A stretch of 64,000 bases of DNA from Methylopila jiangsuensis. GTDB taxonomy: Bacteria; Pseudomonadota; Alphaproteobacteria; Rhizobiales; Methylopilaceae. Each line of letters opens with the position of its first letter. Within the stretch, counting starts at the first letter, position 1. The notes below the pieces were generated by a model that ran no database searches, was not told where the DNA came from, and saw only the letters and a list, made by a program, of their open reading frames with translations. Below, piece after piece: positions 2,730-33,538 of this stretch. The stretch spans positions 124,001 to 188,000 of the forward strand of contig NZ_BSFK01000016.1 of the NCBI RefSeq assembly GCF_027922305.1. Direction: 5' to 3'. Both the position numbers and the translations under genes were made by a program.

Positions 2730-5242
2730 CAGCGGTAGCGGGCCGTGGCCAGCACCATGCGGCCCTCGCCGAAGGTGCAGGAGCCGAAGCCGTTGCAGGC
2801 GGCGATGTAGTCCTTGTCGAACAGGTTCTTGGCGTTGACCGTCACGCTGAAGCCGTCAAGCCGCGGATTGCGCTTGCCGAAGTCGTAGGTGACGGCGGCG
2901 TCCACGAGGGTGAAGCCGGGCACCTTTGAGGGCTTGCGGATATAGCCAGGTTCGTTCCACACGTTCGACGCCGTGCCGAAGGTTGAACTGATGTATCGGA
3001 CGCCGCCGCCAACGGTCAGGCCGTTGAGCGCGTTCGACGGCTGGAAGGCGTAGTCGGCCCAGATCGTCGCCGTGTGCTCGGGCACGGCGACAGGACGCTT
3101 GCCCTTGTGCGAGATTACATCATCGTCCTTTAGCGTGGTGCTTTCGGAGGTCTCAAGCACCTTCATGTCGGTGTAGGCGTAGCTTGCAGTCAGATTGAGC
3201 CCTTCGGCGAGGCTTGCCTTACCCTCGACCTCGAAACCCCGTGATCGCACTTCACCGTCAACCCGATACACGGTGTCCGTTCCCACCAGGGCCGAGCTCA
3301 CGACATTCTCCTTGTGAATGTCGAACGCGGCCACCGTGATGAAGGCGTTGTAGCCAGTCGGCTGATACTTGAAGCCTGCTTCCCACTGGTTGCCCGTGGT
3401 CGGCTTGTAGGGACCCTGATCCGAGGCTGTAGCGAGCGTCGGCTCGAACGAGGTCGAATAGCTGACGTAAGGCGACAGACCGTTGTCGAACAGATAGACG
3501 AGGCCCGCCCGGCCGGTCCATGCCGCGTCCTTCGCCCGAATGTCGCTACGGACGAAGTCCGTCGCGATGATCGTTTGCTTCGTGTGGATATTGGACCAGT
3601 CGCGCCGGCCCGACAGCCACAGCCGCCACTTGTCGAAGGCGATCTGGTCCTGCGCGTAGACGCCGACCTGCTCGATCTCGTTGGTGTTGCGAACGATCGG
3701 CTTCGGCTTGACGAACGACATATTGTTGTTGGGGTCAAAGATATCGATAGGATCTATGGACGACCAACCGTAATCCCAAGGTCCATCCATCCACTGGTAA
3801 TCGAGGCCGACCAGCGTCGTGTGCGAGAACGGACCGGTCTCGAACTTCGTTTCGAGCTGATTGTCGATCGCGAAATTGTCTACGTCATGTTTCGAGATCG
3901 TGGGGGTGCGATAGAGTGTCTTATTGTCATCCGCGAGCTGGAAGAAATCGACGCTCTTGAACGTGTCCTTGATCTTGCCGTAGCGGGCGTTGGAGCGGAA
4001 GGTCAGGCTGTCGTTGAACTCATGCTCGAACTGGGCGCTGACCCAGGCTTCGGTGCGGTCGAAGCGGTTCCAGTTCTTGTCGCCCTGGAAGAAGCTGTTG
4101 GACAGCTTGCCGTGGCCGGGGACGCCCAGGATCGTGCCGCGGGGGGAGACGAAGCCGGCGTCGGAGGTGTGCGGGTCGTGCTGGTAGGCCGCCTGCACGG
4201 TGAGCGTGGTCTGGTCGTCCGGCCGCCAGGTGAAGGACGGCGCCAGCAGGATGCGCTGGTCCTTCTGGTAGTCGATCTGGGTCTCGGCCAGCCGGCCGAG
4301 CGCGATCATGCGGTAGGTGAGCGTCCCGGCGTCGTCGACCTTGCCGCCCACGTCCACGCCGGTCTCCAGATAGGCGTGCTCGCCGACGCGGGCGAAGACC
4401 TCGTTCACCGGCGTGTCGGTGGGGCGCTTGCTGACCAGGTTGACGAAGCCGCCGGGCTGGGCGCGGCCGTAGAGCACCGAGGACGGGCCGCGGAACACCT
4501 CCACGCGCTCCAGCAGGAACGGGTCGATCTGCACCGCGGTGCGGGCGGGGAAGTTCCAGCGCAGGCCGTCGTGATAGGAGGCGTAGCTGGCGTCGGCGGA
4601 GAAGCCGCCGAAGCCGCGCAGGAACACCGGGTCGAACCGCCGGCTCTGCAGGCCCGCGGTGCCGGCCACCACGCCCGCGGTGTAGCGCAGCGCCTCGCCC
4701 ACCGTGGTGGCGCCTTGGGCGTCCATCTGGTCGCGGGGGATGACGGAGATCGACTGCGGCGTCTCGATCAGCGCCGCGTCGGTCTTGGAGGCGGTGGCGG
4801 AGCGCTTCGCCACGAAGCCGTTCACCGGGCCGGTGGCGGTCTCGCCCTCGCCGGCGACCGAGAGCGGCGGCAGCTCCACCGTCTCCTCCAGCGCCACCGG
4901 CGCGGCGTCCGCCGCCGGGTTGAAGATCGAGACCGTGCCCTCGTTCACGAAGCGGTAGGCGTAGCCGGTGCCGGAGAGCATGCGTCCCAGCGCCTCGCGC
5001 GCGGTCATCTCGCCCTTGACCGGCTTGGTGCTGGCGGTGATGGGGCGGTTCTCGCGGAACACCACTGCGAGGCCCATGGCCCGGCCGAGTTCGTTCAGCG
5101 CCTGCGGGGCGGCTTTCGCGGCGATGTCGATCCGCACCCGCCGCGCGTCCGCCGGATCGGCCCCCGCCGTCCCCACCGCCGCCGCCAGCGCACCGGCTGC
5201 AAGGCCCGCGCGCCACACGCTCTTCATCGCCATTTTGAACAT
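2726..5242 (-). CDS. TonB-dependent siderophore receptor with STN signalling domain (838 aa)
   Basis: Outer-membrane ferric-siderophore receptor of the FpvA/FecA class. After a signal peptide (about 1-28) there is a secretin/TonB N-terminal (STN) domain at about 36-108 (IDIAAKAAPQALNELGRAMG, later KGEMTAREALGRMLSGTGY). This domain contacts the anti-sigma factor in the periplasm. The plug follows (ETPQSISVIPRD, VEVFRGPSSVLYGRAQPGG) and then a beta-barrel ending in the terminal aromatic signature ARYRW. The STN domain, with fecR and fecI directly upstream, makes a complete cell-surface signalling circuit. The central part of the gene (about 3100-3950) is visibly less GC-rich than its ends, possibly reflecting variable barrel loops or recombination. 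Confidence 0.93.
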   Translation of the reverse strand: MFKMAMKSVWRAGLAAGALAAAVGTAGADPADARRVRIDIAAKAAPQALNELGRAMGLAVVFRENRPITASTKPVKGEMTAREALGRMLSGTGYAYRFVNEGTVSIFNPAADAAPVALEETVELPPLSVAGEGETATGPVNGFVAKRSATASKTDAALIETPQSISVIPRDQMDAQGATTVGEALRYTAGVVAGTAGLQSRRFDPVFLRGFGGFSADASYASYHDGLRWNFPARTAVQIDPFLLERVEVFRGPSSVLYGRAQPGGFVNLVSKRPTDTPVNEVFARVGEHAYLETGVDVGGKVDDAGTLTYRMIALGRLAETQIDYQKDQRILLAPSFTWRPDDQTTLTVQAAYQHDPHTSDAGFVSPRGTILGVPGHGKLSNSFFQGDKNWNRFDRTEAWVSAQFEHEFNDSLTFRSNARYGKIKDTFKSVDFFQLADDNKTLYRTPTISKHDVDNFAIDNQLETKFETGPFSHTTLVGLDYQWMDGPWDYGWSSIDPIDIFDPNNNMSFVKPKPIVRNTNEIEQVGVYAQDQIAFDKWRLWLSGRRDWSNIHTKQTIIATDFVRSDIRAKDAAWTGRAGLVYLFDNGLSPYVSYSTSFEPTLATASDQGPYKPTTGNQWEAGFKYQPTGYNAFITVAAFDIHKENVVSSALVGTDTVYRVDGEVRSRGFEVEGKASLAEGLNLTASYAYTDMKVLETSESTTLKDDDVISHKGKRPVAVPEHTATIWADYAFQPSNALNGLTVGGGVRYISSTFGTASNVWNEPGYIRKPSKVPGFTLVDAAVTYDFGKRNPRLDGFSVTVNAKNLFDKDYIAACNGFGSCTFGEGRMVLATARYRW

Positions 5243-26595: not shown

Positions 26596-27241
26596 TCAGA
26601 TACCAAAGTGGAAACTTACTGCGATGTCGCCGGCGCCCTGGCGCCCTGGCGCCGAGCGCCCGCCGCGTCGACGCGCCACGAGCCGCTCCTCCCGGCAGAG
26701 GCGGTAGACCTTCCTCAGGTTCATCCTCAATCCCTCCCGCCTCAGCAGGATCGCCAGCCGCCGGTAGCCGAACCGGCGGCGCTCATCGGCAAGCTCCCGC
26801 AGGCGCGTGCGGACGGCGGCATCGCCATCCGCCTCGCGCCGGCGCTGGAAGCTCGACCGATCCACTCCGATCAGCCTGCAGGCCCGGCGCTCCGAGTAGC
26901 CGTGATCGTCGATCACGCGCTTCACCGTCGCGAACCGCGCCGCAGGCGAGATCAGTTTTTCCCAGCAGATCCTTCAGCGCCGCATTGTCGAGCATCTGCT
27001 CGGCCAGAAGCTTCTTCAGCCGCCGGTTCTCCTCCTCGAGCGTGCGCAGCCGCGCCGTCTCGGAGGCCGTCATGCCGCCGTACCGAGCCTTCCCCTTGTA
27101 GAGCGTGGCGTCCGAGATCCCGTGCTTGCGGCGCACGTCGGCGGTCTTCATCCCCGCCTCGTGCTCCTTCAGCACCGAGATGACCTGCTCCTCGGTGAAA
27201 CGGCTCCGCCGCATGATCCTTCTCCTGATCGAAGGACCCAA
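26596..27241 (-). mobile_element. IS3-family insertion sequence remnant (orfA complete, orfB truncated)
   Basis: OrfA (ATG 27214) encodes an HTH plus leucine-zipper protein (RRSRFTEEQVISVLKEHEAGMKTADVRRKHGISDATLYKGKARYGG). A GAAAAAC run near 26957 is a candidate programmed -1 slippage site leading into orfB (SPAARFATVKRVIDDHGYSERRACRLIGVDRSSFQRRR). OrfB stops after the HTH_21 region (KVYRLCREERLVARRRGGR), so the DDE integrase core is gone. The layout resembles the IS407/IS1222 side of IS3. The cut end at about 26600-26660 carries a short GGCGCCCTGGCGCC repetition. Not capable of transposing by itself. Confidence 0.85.
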
Positions 27242-29716: not shown

Positions 29717-30619
29717 GTGAGTGGCAATTGGACCGAGCACAGCATCCCCGACCAGCGCGGACGGATCGCGATCGTCACCGGCGGCAACACCGGGCTGGGT
29801 TTTGAGACGGCGCGGATGCTTGCCGCGCATGGAGCGAAAGTGGTTCTGGCGGTCCGCGACGTGGCGAAGGGCGCGCAGGCGGCGGCCCGCATCGCCGGCG
29901 AGGTCGCCGTCCAGGCGCTCGACCTGGCCTCGCTCAATTCGATCCGCTCGGCGGCGGCCGACCTGCGGGCCGCCTATCCGCGCATCGATCTTCTGATCAA
30001 CAACGCCGGGGTGATGTACACGCCGAGGCAGACCACCTCGGACGGTTTCGAACTGCAGTTCGGCGTCAACCACCTCGGCCACTTCGCGCTGACGGGTCTC
30101 CTGCTCGACGGCCTTCTCCCGGTTCCCGGCTCCCGCGTCGTGACGGTCAGCAGCACCGGCCACCGCATTCAGGCCGCCATCCATTTCGACGACCTGCAGG
30201 GGCAGCGTTCGTACAGCCGCGCTGGCGCCTACGGCCAGTCCAAACTGGCCAACCTGATGTTCACCTATGAACTTCAGCGCCGCCTCGCCCGGCATGGCGC
30301 GACGGTCGCGGTGGCGGCCCATCCCGGTGTGTCCAACACTGAACTGATCCGAAACCTGCCGTCCGCGTTTCGTGGTCCCATAAGCTGGCTTGCGCCATTG
30401 CTGACCCAAAAGCCTGAAATGGGCGCCTTGCCGACGCTGCGCGCCGCCACCGATCCGGCGGTTCTCGGCGGGCAATATTACGGCCCCGGCGGGTGGGGTG
30501 AAGTGCGCGGATATCCAAAACTGGTCACCTCCAGCGCCGACTCCTACGACCTTGCCGTGCAGCGGCGACTGTGGACCGTCTCCGAGGAACTCACCGGCGT
30601 GATGTTTCCGGTGAGGTGA
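29717..30619 (+). CDS. SDR family oxidoreductase, retinol-dehydrogenase-like (300 aa)
   Basis: Short-chain dehydrogenase with cofactor motif TGGNTGLG (about 22-29), NNAGVMYTP, the catalytic region VVTVSSTGHRI and YGQSKLANLMFTYELQRRLA with Tyr/Lys. The C-terminal half (VAAHPGVSNTELIRNLP, GGQYYGPGGWGEVRGYPK) is typical of the WWOX/retinol-dehydrogenase-like bacterial SDRs. Start GTG 29717 lies 15 bp after the third operator and is preceded by TAGGGGCG. Expected to be induced when the TetR protein binds its ligand. The substrate is unknown. Confidence 0.9.
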   Translation: MSGNWTEHSIPDQRGRIAIVTGGNTGLGFETARMLAAHGAKVVLAVRDVAKGAQAAARIAGEVAVQALDLASLNSIRSAAADLRAAYPRIDLLINNAGVMYTPRQTTSDGFELQFGVNHLGHFALTGLLLDGLLPVPGSRVVTVSSTGHRIQAAIHFDDLQGQRSYSRAGAYGQSKLANLMFTYELQRRLARHGATVAVAAHPGVSNTELIRNLPSAFRGPISWLAPLLTQKPEMGALPTLRAATDPAVLGGQYYGPGGWGEVRGYPKLVTSSADSYDLAVQRRLWTVSEELTGVMFPVR

Positions 30620-30730
30620 GGCGGCGCGCCATGTGTGAAGAGGATAGATGTCGCGCGGGCGTCCGCCGAATAGGCTCCCATCGTAATTAACGAACCCATT
30701 CCAATCCCACTTCGTGGAACGAAAATAAAT
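30620..30730. other. Intergenic AT-rich sequence left of the IS1595 element
   Basis: AT-rich non-coding DNA downstream of the SDR gene. The last 8 bases (AAATAAAT, 30723-30730) are the left copy of the target-site duplication of the element that follows. No gene or RNA is seen. Confidence 0.5.
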
Positions 30731-30853
30731 AAGGCTTATCCCGTTGATTAAGGTTGGCCTATATGTTGATATGTACTATAATAAATACGTACCCTGATTA
30801 GGGGCAAAGCCTATAAATGTCGTCTCTTTTTTTTAAAGGATGATTGGGAAAAC

Positions 30854-30887
30854 AAAAAAAGCGGGGATCGCCTTAAGCGATCCCCGC
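30854..30887 (-). terminator. Strong intrinsic terminator for minus-strand peptide gene
   Basis: An 11-bp perfect stem, GCGGGGATCGC (30861-30871) with its complement at 30877-30887 and a 5-nt loop, is followed on the minus strand by a run of seven T (30854-30860). It lies 5 bp beyond the stop of the 31-codon gene, so that gene has its own transcript end. Confidence 0.88.
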
Positions 30888-30892
30888 CCGAG

Positions 30893-30988
30893 CTACAGTA
30901 AAATTAAGACGGCTACCAAGAGTGTGTTTAGTACTTTGGCGACGTCAAGTTTCACTGTAACATCGACACGGATGCTTGTCCGATTCAT
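30893..30988 (-). CDS. Tiny peptide with hydrophobic C-terminus inside IS1595 element (31 aa)
   Basis: A short frame with an excellent ribosome-binding site: GGAGG (complement of 30997-31001) lies 8 bases before the ATG at 30988; another ATG at 30994 is too close to it. The peptide begins MNRTSIRVDVTVKLDV and ends in a hydrophobic stretch (LLVAVLILL). A strong terminator follows at once. Hydrophobic peptides of this size occur as type I toxins or small membrane regulators; no family is recognised here. The SD, compact frame and terminator together support a real gene. Confidence 0.6.
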   Translation of the reverse strand: MNRTSIRVDVTVKLDVAKVLNTLLVAVLILL

Positions 30989-31042
30989 GGACATGACCTC
31001 CGGGTCAGGCGCGCCTCGACCCAAAAGGTTGAGGTTACGGCC

Positions 31043-31247
31043 CCCATCGAACGGTTTTGCCGCCGTTCATGGGTGCATCGGCCCGCTTCCGGTGTTCATG
31101 ACCACCGTTAGCGGTCCCACGTGCTTCCCTCTAGAAGCCGCAGTGACTCCGTCACCGTGGCTTCGTGTGAACACAGTTCAATCGAGGCCGTGGGTTGCCG
31201 CTGAGTCCCTGCGAGAAGCGCGATGAAGCTTATCGGCTCTCGCAGGG
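31043..31247. other. Hairpin-rich non-coding stretch, possible structured RNA
   Basis: In about 205 bp there are three strong inverted repeats: 31043-31073 (11 pairs, one bulged C, 8-nt loop, arms CCCAT.GAACGG), 31134-31164 (arms GAAGCC and GTGAC, 3-nt loop) and 31207-31247 (CCCTGCGAGA arms, 21-nt loop). The stretch lies between the transposase stop and the tiny peptide gene. On the minus strand it would be the leader of the peptide; on the plus strand it could be an antisense or independent RNA. No known RNA family is recognised. Confidence 0.5.
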
Positions 31248-31266
31248 GCGACAGTGGCTCAATGCC

Positions 31267-32235
31267 CTAAGGCTGCTGCCGAGGCAATGGGTTTTTGTAA
31301 GCTTCCCTCAACGCCTTCAACGACATCGGCCCCACCGCCATCCCGATCCCAAGCAGGACGTCGAACGCCTCGGCGTAACGGCGTCGGAAGTTCCAGCGGA
31401 ACGCGAACTCGTCAAGATAGGCTTGCAGGTAGCAGCGGCGTAAACCGTGATAGACGCCCATGCCCCAGCGCTTGAGGTTCGAAAACACGCGGTGAATCCA
31501 GGGCATGAAGACGTGCGCGGGCATCATGCCAATGACCCGCTCCTTGTGCTCCCGGTCCTTCAGCCCGCGATAGCCGGTGTTGCCATCCGTTGAGATGGTC
31601 GATTTTGGAACGGTAACGCTCTCCACGAAGGCGCGCAGCGTCGCGCCCTGGAAATCGCTGGCGGCTTTCAGGCGAATGCGTCCCGGACCCTTGCCGCCAT
31701 CCTTGAGTTCGACCGCGCCAAGGACGATCAGCTTGCCGACCGGGCTTCGCCCTTGCGTCCCGAAGCGTCGGGAGTCGCTCTTGGCGTGATAGGGCATGGA
31801 CGACTCGTCCACCTCCACGACGCCTTCCAGCGCGCCGCGATCGGGATCGACCATGGCCTTGCGCAGGCGATGCAGTAGGAACCACGCGGTCTTGTATGAA
31901 CCGATCCCGAGCTTGGCCTGAAGCTGGAGCGCTGAGATGCCGTTGGAATGCGTCGCCACAAGGTGTGCGGCGAGGAACCACGTTCGCAGCGGCAGATGCG
32001 TACGGTGCATGATGGTGCCCGCCGTAGCGGACGTCTGCTTGCCGCAGCCAGCGCACTCATAGGTCCACGGCTTCGTGGCGAGCCGCCATCCCTTGACGCA
32101 AGCGCATGCAGGGCAGCGGAAGCCATCAGGCCAGCGCTTCCGGATCAGATGCTCGGCGCAAGCCGCGTCATCCGGGAACAGAGCCATAAAGGCTTGTAGT
32201 GAAATGGGACGATCATGGGTCCAGCGCGCGCTCAT
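31267..32235 (-). CDS. IS1595 family (ISXO2-like) transposase (322 aa)
   Basis: The N-terminal zinc ribbon (CPACACVKGWRL to YECAGCGKQTS, about 38-75) is followed by the ISXO2-like DDE domain: VVEVDESSMPY with the first Asp, TISTDGNTGYRGL with the second Asp, and the HRVFSNLKRWGMGVYHGLR...YLDEFAFRWNFRRRY block at about 255-300. The protein is full length without frameshifts, so the enzyme may be active. The nearby element ends and target duplication agree with recent transposition. It is transcribed toward the tiny peptide gene. Confidence 0.92.
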   Translation of the reverse strand: MSARWTHDRPISLQAFMALFPDDAACAEHLIRKRWPDGFRCPACACVKGWRLATKPWTYECAGCGKQTSATAGTIMHRTHLPLRTWFLAAHLVATHSNGISALQLQAKLGIGSYKTAWFLLHRLRKAMVDPDRGALEGVVEVDESSMPYHAKSDSRRFGTQGRSPVGKLIVLGAVELKDGGKGPGRIRLKAASDFQGATLRAFVESVTVPKSTISTDGNTGYRGLKDREHKERVIGMMPAHVFMPWIHRVFSNLKRWGMGVYHGLRRCYLQAYLDEFAFRWNFRRRYAEAFDVLLGIGMAVGPMSLKALREAYKNPLPRQQP

Positions 32236-32264
32236 GCCGGCTCACGAGCAAATGCCGCGCCATT

Positions 32265-32477
32265 TCATCCACTGTCAGAAAGTAAATGTAAGGGAGATAC
32301 TTTTAGGACAGAGGCGATCTTTTCAACCACATCGAGAGTCGGATTCTTCGAACCACGCTCGATGCCGCCAACGTAGCTGTAAGCCAAGCCGACCTCGTGC
32401 GCCAGGCCTTCCAAGGTCATGCCCTTGTCGAGGCGGGCTTTCCGCACGTTCTTACCGAAGGTCTCAGCCAAGCGCAT
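32265..32477 (-). CDS. Small XRE-type helix-turn-helix regulator, passenger of IS1595 element (70 aa)
   Basis: A single Cro/CI-like HTH: FGKNVRKARLDKGMTLEGLAHEVGLAYSYVGGIERGSKNPTLDVVEKIASVLKVSPLHLL. The ATG at 32477 is used; the frame goes on to a TTG at 32492. The last four residues and stop lie in the inner inverted repeat of the transposase unit, so the natural C-terminus may have been replaced. It is divergent from the membrane peptide at 32561. It could regulate that gene or the transposase. Confidence 0.85.
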   Translation of the reverse strand: MRLAETFGKNVRKARLDKGMTLEGLAHEVGLAYSYVGGIERGSKNPTLDVVEKIASVLKVSPLHLLSDSG

Positions 32478-32560
32478 GCGCGCATGACGCAAGCGATCGT
32501 TAACCCGTTCCAGTCACTATAGTGACCGTCGCCGCTCTCGCGACGCGGTGGAGAATTGTG

Positions 32561-32734
32561 ATGCTGACGACTCTGTCCGTTTTTGTCCTTTGCAGTGTGA
32601 CCGGCGTCACTGTCGCCGTAGCCCTATGGCTTTATCGACTGGTCACTGAGCTTCGAAATGAGGTTCAAAATCTACGCTTCGAACTTCAACGCGTTCGCTT
32701 GGTTACGACAAAACAGGACAGACACCACATCTAG
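32561..32734 (+). CDS. Small membrane peptide with coiled-coil tail (57 aa)
   Basis: ATG 32561 follows GGAG (32550-32553) with a 7-nt spacer. The protein has one membrane helix (LSVFVLCSVTGVTVAVALWLYRLV, about 4-28) and a charged amphipathic tail (ELRNEVQNLRFELQRVRLV) typical of a short coiled coil. There is no named family. It lies between the XRE gene and the right end of the IS1595 element, divergent from XRE, and is probably a passenger gene. Confidence 0.6.
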   Translation: MLTTLSVFVLCSVTGVTVAVALWLYRLVTELRNEVQNLRFELQRVRLVTTKQDRHHI

Positions 32735-32794
32735 GGGGACCTGAGCCAAGGGGATAAGCCTTAAATAAATAGCGCATTGACCCAAATTGGCGGG

Positions 32795-33538
32795 TCATGA
32801 TCCTGTATGTATTTGAAGTATGCGCTTATCCAGCCAGATGAGGTTGGGGGCATTGCTTCGGACTGATCCTGCGATGGCGAGAAAATGGTCGGGCGTTGGG
32901 CGGAAACGCCAGAAACGCCATCGCGCCGGATCGTCGGGACATCTTTCGCTGAAGCGGATGGAGGGCGACGGGCCTGACACCTCGAAAGCGAAGCTGTCGA
33001 GGTCGAGCGAGAACCCAAGGCCGCGAGCCTTGATGTAGGCCTCCTTCAACGTCCAGAGCGCAAAGAACAGGTCCCGCCGTTCCGCCTCGTCTGGCCCAGC
33101 CGAGAAGGCCGCCAGTTCGTGCCCCGAGAACACGGAGCGGGCGAGGCCTTCCAGGTCCTTGGCGCGCCTCATGCTCTCGACGTCCACGCCGATCAGCGGA
33201 TCGGCGGCGACGGCGACGGCGACCAGACCGTCCGTGTGGCTGAGATTGAAATGAAGCCCCAGGCCGGCCGTCGTCTCCACATGCGGCCGGCCGAACGCGT
33301 TCGCGCCGAAGGTCCAGTCCTCGGGTAGGACATCCGCATAGCGCGACAGGGTCAGGCGCAGCAGGGCGTGGGCGGCCAGATACTGCAGCCGCGCGCCGGA
33401 CGCCACGAAACGGTCGCAACGCCCTCGTTCCTCCTCGCTCAGGAGCGCGAGGCAGGATCGCTCCTGCGCCGCGTCGAGATCGTCGGGCCGGGCGAGCCAG
33501 ACGTCGATCCGTCCCGGCGGAAGCGTCAGGCGTTCCAT
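32795..33538 (-). CDS. 4'-phosphopantetheinyl transferase, Sfp type (247 aa)
   Basis: Transfers the phosphopantetheine arm of CoA to carrier domains of NRPS/PKS or related proteins. Signatures: LHFNLSHTDGLVAVAVA (about 95-110), IGVDVE (Asp and Glu for Mg) and FFALWTLKEAYIKARGLGFSL (WxxKEA). Length and two-lobed layout are those of the broad-specificity Sfp group. It lies just downstream of a TonB receptor, the position of the YbtD-like gene in siderophore loci, but no NRPS gene is present in the window. Its carrier protein is thus encoded elsewhere or lost. Confidence 0.92.
   Translation of the reverse strand: MERLTLPPGRIDVWLARPDDLDAAQERSCLALLSEEERGRCDRFVASGARLQYLAAHALLRLTLSRYADVLPEDWTFGANAFGRPHVETTAGLGLHFNLSHTDGLVAVAVAADPLIGVDVESMRRAKDLEGLARSVFSGHELAAFSAGPDEAERRDLFFALWTLKEAYIKARGLGFSLDLDSFAFEVSGPSPSIRFSERCPDDPARWRFWRFRPTPDHFLAIAGSVRSNAPNLIWLDKRILQIHTGS

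Follow-up and report, generated by a model that had tools for sequence, protein, structure and literature searches.

A passenger-carrying IS1595-family insertion sequence with a candidate regulator-transposase operon and a putative operator

To our knowledge, the means by which small insertion sequences restrain their own transposase once they have arrived are understood in few families only. An element of the IS1595 family in Methylopila jiangsuensis, in which a regulator gene, two very short reading frames and a strongly folded stretch lie between the same pair of ends as the transposase, raises the question of whether such passengers are maintained together with the transposase, control it or are simply carried along. 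Here, we have analyzed this element within a stretch of 64 kb (the window), together with its closest relatives (Table 1).

Table 1. Features of the element (window positions) and of its five closest relatives
Feature	Position	Strand	Basis or remark
Left 8-bp target-site duplication AAATAAAT	30723..30730		Repeat comparison
Left terminal inverted repeat AAGGCTTATCCC, 12 bp	30731..30742	+	Perfect; relatives have the same end sequence
Sigma-70-like promoter TTGGCC-17-TATAAT, putative, into structured block	30754..30782	+	Weak match
Intrinsic-terminator-like stem, 14 pairs, then T run	30859..30889	-	Terminator scan
Strongly structured block directly 3' of transposase gene	30859..31265		Folding z-scores; coding direction undecided
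31-aa hydrophobic ORF (33 aa from ATG 30994)	30893..30988	-	Preceded by GGAGG; no homologue found
IS1595-family transposase, 322 aa, zinc ribbon and DDE_Tnp_IS1595	31267..32235	-	Domain matches, alignment
XRE/Cro-type regulator, 70 aa, like restriction-modification controllers	32265..32477	-	Ends 29 nt before transposase start
Perfect 14-bp palindrome GTCACTATAGTGAC, proposed operator	32513..32526		TATAGT on both strands; overlooked in the earlier note
57-aa single-helix membrane ORF, divergent from XRE	32561..32734	+	ORF list; no homologue found
Right terminal inverted repeat, reverse complement of AAGGCTTATCCC	32751..32762	-	Perfect
Right 8-bp target-site duplication AAATAAAT	32763..32770		Perfect copy of left
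Relative 1, Indioceanicola profundi			1915 bp, two identical copies; target duplications AAATATTT and GTTATTTT
Relative 2, strain NT-25 (ISRhtr1-like)	L036 3888-6011		2124 bp; duplication TTTGGGCA
Relative 3, Octadecabacter arcticus			1202 bp; interrupted transposase frame, cargo absent
Relative 4, Rhizobium leguminosarum			2197 bp
Relative 5, Sinorhizobium fredii			2158 bp; two records, 3/2158 positions differ

The element is intact and extends from 30731 to 32762. An earlier note on this DNA, made from the sequence alone, had described precise ends in 8-bp repeats, a length of about 2.03 kb and an intact transposase, called ISXO2-like there. The ends, the length and the intact state of the transposase held: the perfect 12-bp ends lie inside two copies of AAATAAAT, the length is 2032 bp and the 322-aa transposase has both IS1595 domains. 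Perfect 12-bp inverted repeats combined with perfect 8-bp direct repeats, 700-3500 bp apart, occur at this place only in the window, and 100 mononucleotide shuffles gave one such combination in total. The terminal inverted repeat continues imperfectly to 37 nt (78%). As the family is defined in one account, its members have a DDE_Tnp_IS1595 domain, a zinc ribbon in all of the seven groups but IS1016, and an 8-bp duplication (PMC8101967). The transposase examined here has the C-terminal domain (PF12762, 8.7e-29; NF033547, 3.2e-55) and the N-terminal zinc ribbon (PF12760, 6.9e-11), and the duplication is present on both sides. D143, D217 and E276 are invariant across five aligned transposases, and we take them to be the catalytic residues. 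The XRE regulator, the single-helix peptide, the 31-aa hydrophobic ORF with its own terminator and the hairpin-rich stretch listed in the earlier note are all present between the ends. Insertion sequences with non-transposition genes inside one pair of ends have been termed 'transporter' IS (PMC3129680, citing Siguier et al. 2009), and relatives of this element transpose without the passengers found here, that of Octadecabacter without any. The element is thus a real, intact, passenger-carrying IS1595 insertion sequence, of a kind already known. The 3.7-Mb genome has one copy of it, on a contig 188 kb or more in length, between convergent genes for a short-chain dehydrogenase (29717-30619, +) and a 4'-phosphopantetheinyl transferase (32795-33538, -). 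When the flanks and the element were used as query against 18 genomes of the family, an empty target site with both flanks joined was found in none of them; one genome (G016) had part of the right-flank gene (68%) apart from its left-flank gene matches.

It had been proposed that the passengers form a maintained unit with the transposase, and whether they travel with it elsewhere was checked. Transposase relatives occurred in 77 plasmid records; among the matches listed, the seven at about 50% identity or more were examined and represented five distinct elements (transposase identity 50-62%). No relative above 47% identity was found in the other 384 genomes of the class. The end sequence GGCTTATCCC was present at 9 of the 10 ends of these five elements and GCTTATCCC at all 10. 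The ends of relatives 3-5 were placed by the end motif, a search requiring a target duplication having given none for them, and their flank repeats are 9 nt in shifted register (relative 3) or 7 nt (relatives 4 and 5). Beyond the terminal repeats, no likeness to XRE, the 57-aa ORF, the 31-aa ORF or the 3' block was observed in any of the five relatives, nor did tblastn detect XRE or either short ORF at 26 other transposase loci (best chance match E 0.06). For the loci examined, joint travel of the passengers with the transposase was rejected. The cargo slot 3' of the transposase differs from relative to relative. In strain NT-25, in whose record the transposase is labelled ISRhtr1, it holds a toxin-antitoxin-like pair of RHH_1 (7.7e-6) and ParE (3.9e-5); in I. 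profundi, an RHH-like protein (sub-threshold matches only) and an orphan protein with no family match; in R. leguminosarum, DUF805; in S. fredii, a GNAT acetyltransferase; and in O. arcticus it is empty. A toxin-antitoxin-like pair is thus found in one, perhaps two, of the five. Because the relatives share the ends and carry different cargo or none, the passengers are, judging from these comparisons, exchangeable cargo and not a fixed unit. The counterexample named in the earlier note, transposase and flanks in place without the passengers, was nearly found: the passengers are absent in all five relatives, although the flanks differ.

The passenger-carrying elements of NT-25 and I. profundi resemble the present one in their transposase domains, GGCTTATCCC ends, AT-rich or 8-bp target duplications and unrelated genes between the ends. 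In contrast with these relatives, the transposase here has passengers on either side: a regulator in line with it on the 5' side and a folded block with a micro-ORF on the 3' side. Two planctomycete MAG loci (L015, 2106-3998; L018, 2133-3900) were also IS1595-like, with imperfect ends and perfect 8-bp repeats; each has one ORF (253 or 236 aa) before the transposase with no Pfam match at E up to 0.01.

The regulator has an XRE domain (HTH_3, 1.4e-14), and its start is more likely ATG 32477, since homologues align from there. Its best match among solved structures was C.AhdI (1y7y, 1.5e-9), followed by other restriction-modification (R-M) controllers (C.BclI, 8.4e-7) and SinR (2.4e-8); as SinR also matches, the likeness to C-proteins is not specific. 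No R-M genes lie inside the element, and its outside neighbors are the two genes named above. The xre gene and the transposase gene are on one strand with a 29-nt gap and no terminator-like site between them. For comparison of upstream regions, 13 XRE homologues were examined, from 9 of 36 plasmid records, from three of 385 genomes apart from its own and from one viral contig; a further Shinella record (H92), of the same identity as the other Shinella loci, was left out.

A palindrome upstream of xre bears on what this regulator may do. The 14-mer GTCACTATAGTGAC is found once in the 3.7-Mb genome, 35 nt ahead of the XRE start codon and, on the other side, 34 nt ahead of the divergent 57-aa ORF; with up to three mismatches, it has one match in the window versus 0.46 expected. 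The longer 16-mer AGTCACTATAGTGACT (at most one mismatch) precedes the XRE start by 34-36 nt both in this element and in all three homologues examined at 61-66% identity, two of them in Shinella (L041 and L042) and one in genome G337 (L076). For each of these four loci, none of 500 shuffles matched the operator as well. Pairwise identity among the four was 88-94% in the operator and 12-35% upstream of it, whereas that of the leader was 24-44% when counted back from the start codon and 26-74% when counted forward from the operator, the highest value being that of the two Shinella loci (74%). It should be noted that these two have common upstream neighbors (a PAS protein, a response regulator and a hybrid kinase), so the four loci amount to about three independent contexts. 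In all 10 homologues examined at 45-51% identity the 16-mer was absent (at least five mismatches), and four of them had a classical C-box (at most one mismatch) instead. The best match to the C-box GACTtatAGTC upstream of XRE here had four mismatches, and 97% of shuffles were as good. The 16-mer pattern AGTCAYTATARTGACT was found in none of 76 genomes of the class; in viral contigs it occurred at 14 places, and tblastn (E up to 1) detected no XRE relative in the stretches retrieved for them, so that we take these occurrences as chance in a very large collection. The -35 hexamers on either side of the palindrome appeared poor by eye, and the region was not called a promoter. Because the palindrome recurs at the same distance in close homologues while the flanking bases have diverged, XRE probably autoregulates the xre-transposase operon. 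In L041 (Shinella sp. WSC3-e plasmid; 3001-3216), the XRE gene probably starts upstream of the annotated position (3058): both homology and the distance to the operator point to 3001.

On this basis, we consider it moderately probable that XRE binds the palindrome and represses both the xre-transposase operon and the divergent 57-aa gene, with a burst of transposition on entry followed by shut-down, and with the 3' block as cargo. The xre and transposase genes, which follow each other on one strand, would be read as one operon. XRE on the palindrome, with its -10-like TATAGT in both directions, would repress its own operon and the membrane gene; bound there, it would block both divergent promoters, because TATAGT is on both strands at 34-35 nt from both starts. 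On entering a new host that lacks XRE, the element would at first produce transposase and then cease to do so as XRE builds up, and the resulting burst would limit later transposition, much as C-proteins time restriction genes. The folded block with the 31-aa ORF and the terminator would fill the cargo slot, perhaps as a gene of its own for a small RNA or a small peptide. Binding, promoters and co-transcription of the xre-transposase unit are what we infer from the sequence.

The C-proteins of type II R-M systems, such as C.AhdI and C.BclI, are among the closest known counterparts. According to one description, the C gene of these systems is as a rule placed ahead of res within a single operon, and the C-box lies at its promoter (PMC6237814). 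The present locus is similar in having a small XRE protein, a controller directly upstream of an effector gene and an upstream palindrome; unlike in R-M systems, the gene downstream of the controller is a transposase, and a single AGTCACTATAGTGACT palindrome is present versus the double GACTtatAGTC C-box reported for R-M C-proteins (PMC3115060). Thus, a branch of regulators related to R-M controllers is found outside R-M systems.

Alternatively, XRE might itself be mere cargo that regulates its own gene and perhaps the 57-aa ORF, the transposase having its own promoter or being reached by incidental read-through. Passengers in this clade are exchangeable and for the most part have no relation to transposition (for example, DUF805 and GNAT); XRE homologues with the same operator lie outside any IS1595 element in Shinella and G337; and no second element with xre adjoining the transposase was found among the five relatives or the 26 other transposase loci. 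However, xre shares the strand of the transposase across a short gap that has no terminator-like site, and xre and the operator occupy the 5' side here, whereas the transposase of the relatives begins about 70-100 bp from the end. This alternative seems unlikely to us. Under the preferred reading, in which XRE controls the operon, the conserved operator before the xre-transposase operon would offer a concrete and testable case of transposase self-limitation in IS1595. A limited search of the literature, covering titles, abstracts and selected passages, yielded no account of an IS1595 element in which XRE and the transposase form an operon, and this counts only weakly as a sign of absence; as far as such limited searches show, the regulator-transposase operon with its conserved operator is an undescribed variant. 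A bolder version, that the transposon has captured a C-protein-type timing switch (autorepressor and operator giving a one-time burst) and that an undescribed structured RNA or micropeptide gene aids its persistence, appears rather unlikely.

By z-score, the 3' block holds the most strongly folded 200-nt segment of the window, out of 638 segments scanned (319 positions, both strands, 25 shuffles each). For longer stretches of the region, z was -8.1 on the minus strand (31268-30850) and -10.5 on the plus strand (30790-31265). Which strand would be transcribed is indicated in both directions: the terminator and the 31-aa ORF with its GGAGG favor the minus strand, and the TATAAT at 30777-30782 favors a plus-strand RNA. 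G-U pairs are more frequent on the plus strand in the upper part (8 versus 3) and on the minus strand in the lower part (7 versus 4). Promoter-like sites in the region (2 versus 0.9 +/- 0.9 in shuffles) were not above chance, and neither were terminator-like sites (3; shuffle mean 2.1, s.d. 1.3). It is doubtful, though a possibility to be taken seriously, that the block is not an expressed RNA at all and represents clustered DNA palindromes, such as sites of protein binding or recombination, or the remnant of another small element. Consistent with this, both strands fold about equally (whole-block minimum free energies -203.7 and -197.9; 11 G-U pairs each). No Rfam family passed its threshold: L20_leader, which alone matched at E up to 1, had 25.2 bits versus a gathering score of 58.7. 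A covariance model of 133 nt of the block, which has small reach as it was built from one sequence given twice, matched only its own genome (1 of 190 at E up to 0.1) and, in a set of 15 sources, gave matches below E 1 in the 64-kb window only, weak ones besides the block itself. On the other hand, the block, which adjoins the 3' end of the transposase gene, finishes with a good minus-strand terminator, and its z-scores (-8 to -10.5) are well beyond the background of the window. No homologues of the block were found in plasmids; blastn gave matches in 9 of 385 genomes including its own, and the other eight, 23-37 nt long, were taken as chance (three of the eight inspected). CATGAA occurs three times in the block (30987-31105, minus), by eye at hairpin loops or the 31-aa start, possibly by chance.

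The earlier note had also suggested an addiction-type module. Type I toxin-antitoxin loci have a short hydrophobic peptide in a folded RNA, and the block with the 31-aa ORF bears a likeness to them. In such a module, the 31-aa ORF would act as a type I-like toxin with a plus-strand RNA as antitoxin, or XRE and the membrane peptide would form a pair. The ORF is indeed short and hydrophobic, its hydropathy peaking at 2.39 in a span of 15 residues. It has a good ribosome site, would lie in a long folded RNA and is accompanied by a terminator and by a promoter-like site antisense to it, and the NT-25 relative has RHH and ParE in the same slot. Toxin-antitoxin pairs in Tn3 transposons have been proposed to aid invasion (PMC7157771), and where such genes lie by the Tn3 transposase promoter, small regulatory passengers could, as discussed there, affect transposase expression, as they could here; unlike in that case, the transposase is of another family here and a recognised toxin is absent. 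No passenger matched a toxin in Pfam, NCBIfam or PHROGs, and no partner from a known toxin family was found in one operon with XRE, the 57-aa ORF being divergent. The 57-aa ORF, for which ATG 32561 (GGAG 7 nt before) is a likelier start than GTG 32522 (70 aa), had no match in plasmids or viral contigs; the 31-aa ORF was found in its own genome only (1 of 385). In addition, the ribosome site of the 31-aa ORF is only partly paired (unpaired probability 0.23-0.55). Its start codon is open for the most part: of the five transcript ends tried, four gave an unpaired probability of 0.92-0.99 and one gave 0.17. A locked type I message would differ from this, and a type I toxin with a hidden start codon was not supported. 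In contrast with type I loci, a family match is absent and antisense RNA is represented by a promoter-like site only, of a kind whose count was not above chance. Furthermore, a toxin held off by XRE repression alone would not kill after loss of the element, and the element is single-copy on its long contig. An addiction role is improbable in our view. The interpretation in the earlier note is upheld in part: this is an intact IS1595 element with passengers, whereas a unit maintained with the transposase was not supported. No toxin family was found here, and XRE is better explained as a putative operon controller.

By z-score, the stretch 26596-27241 ranks second in the window for structure; it has two overlapping minus-strand ORFs, the second of them short, which presumably correspond to both frames of an IS3-type transposase.
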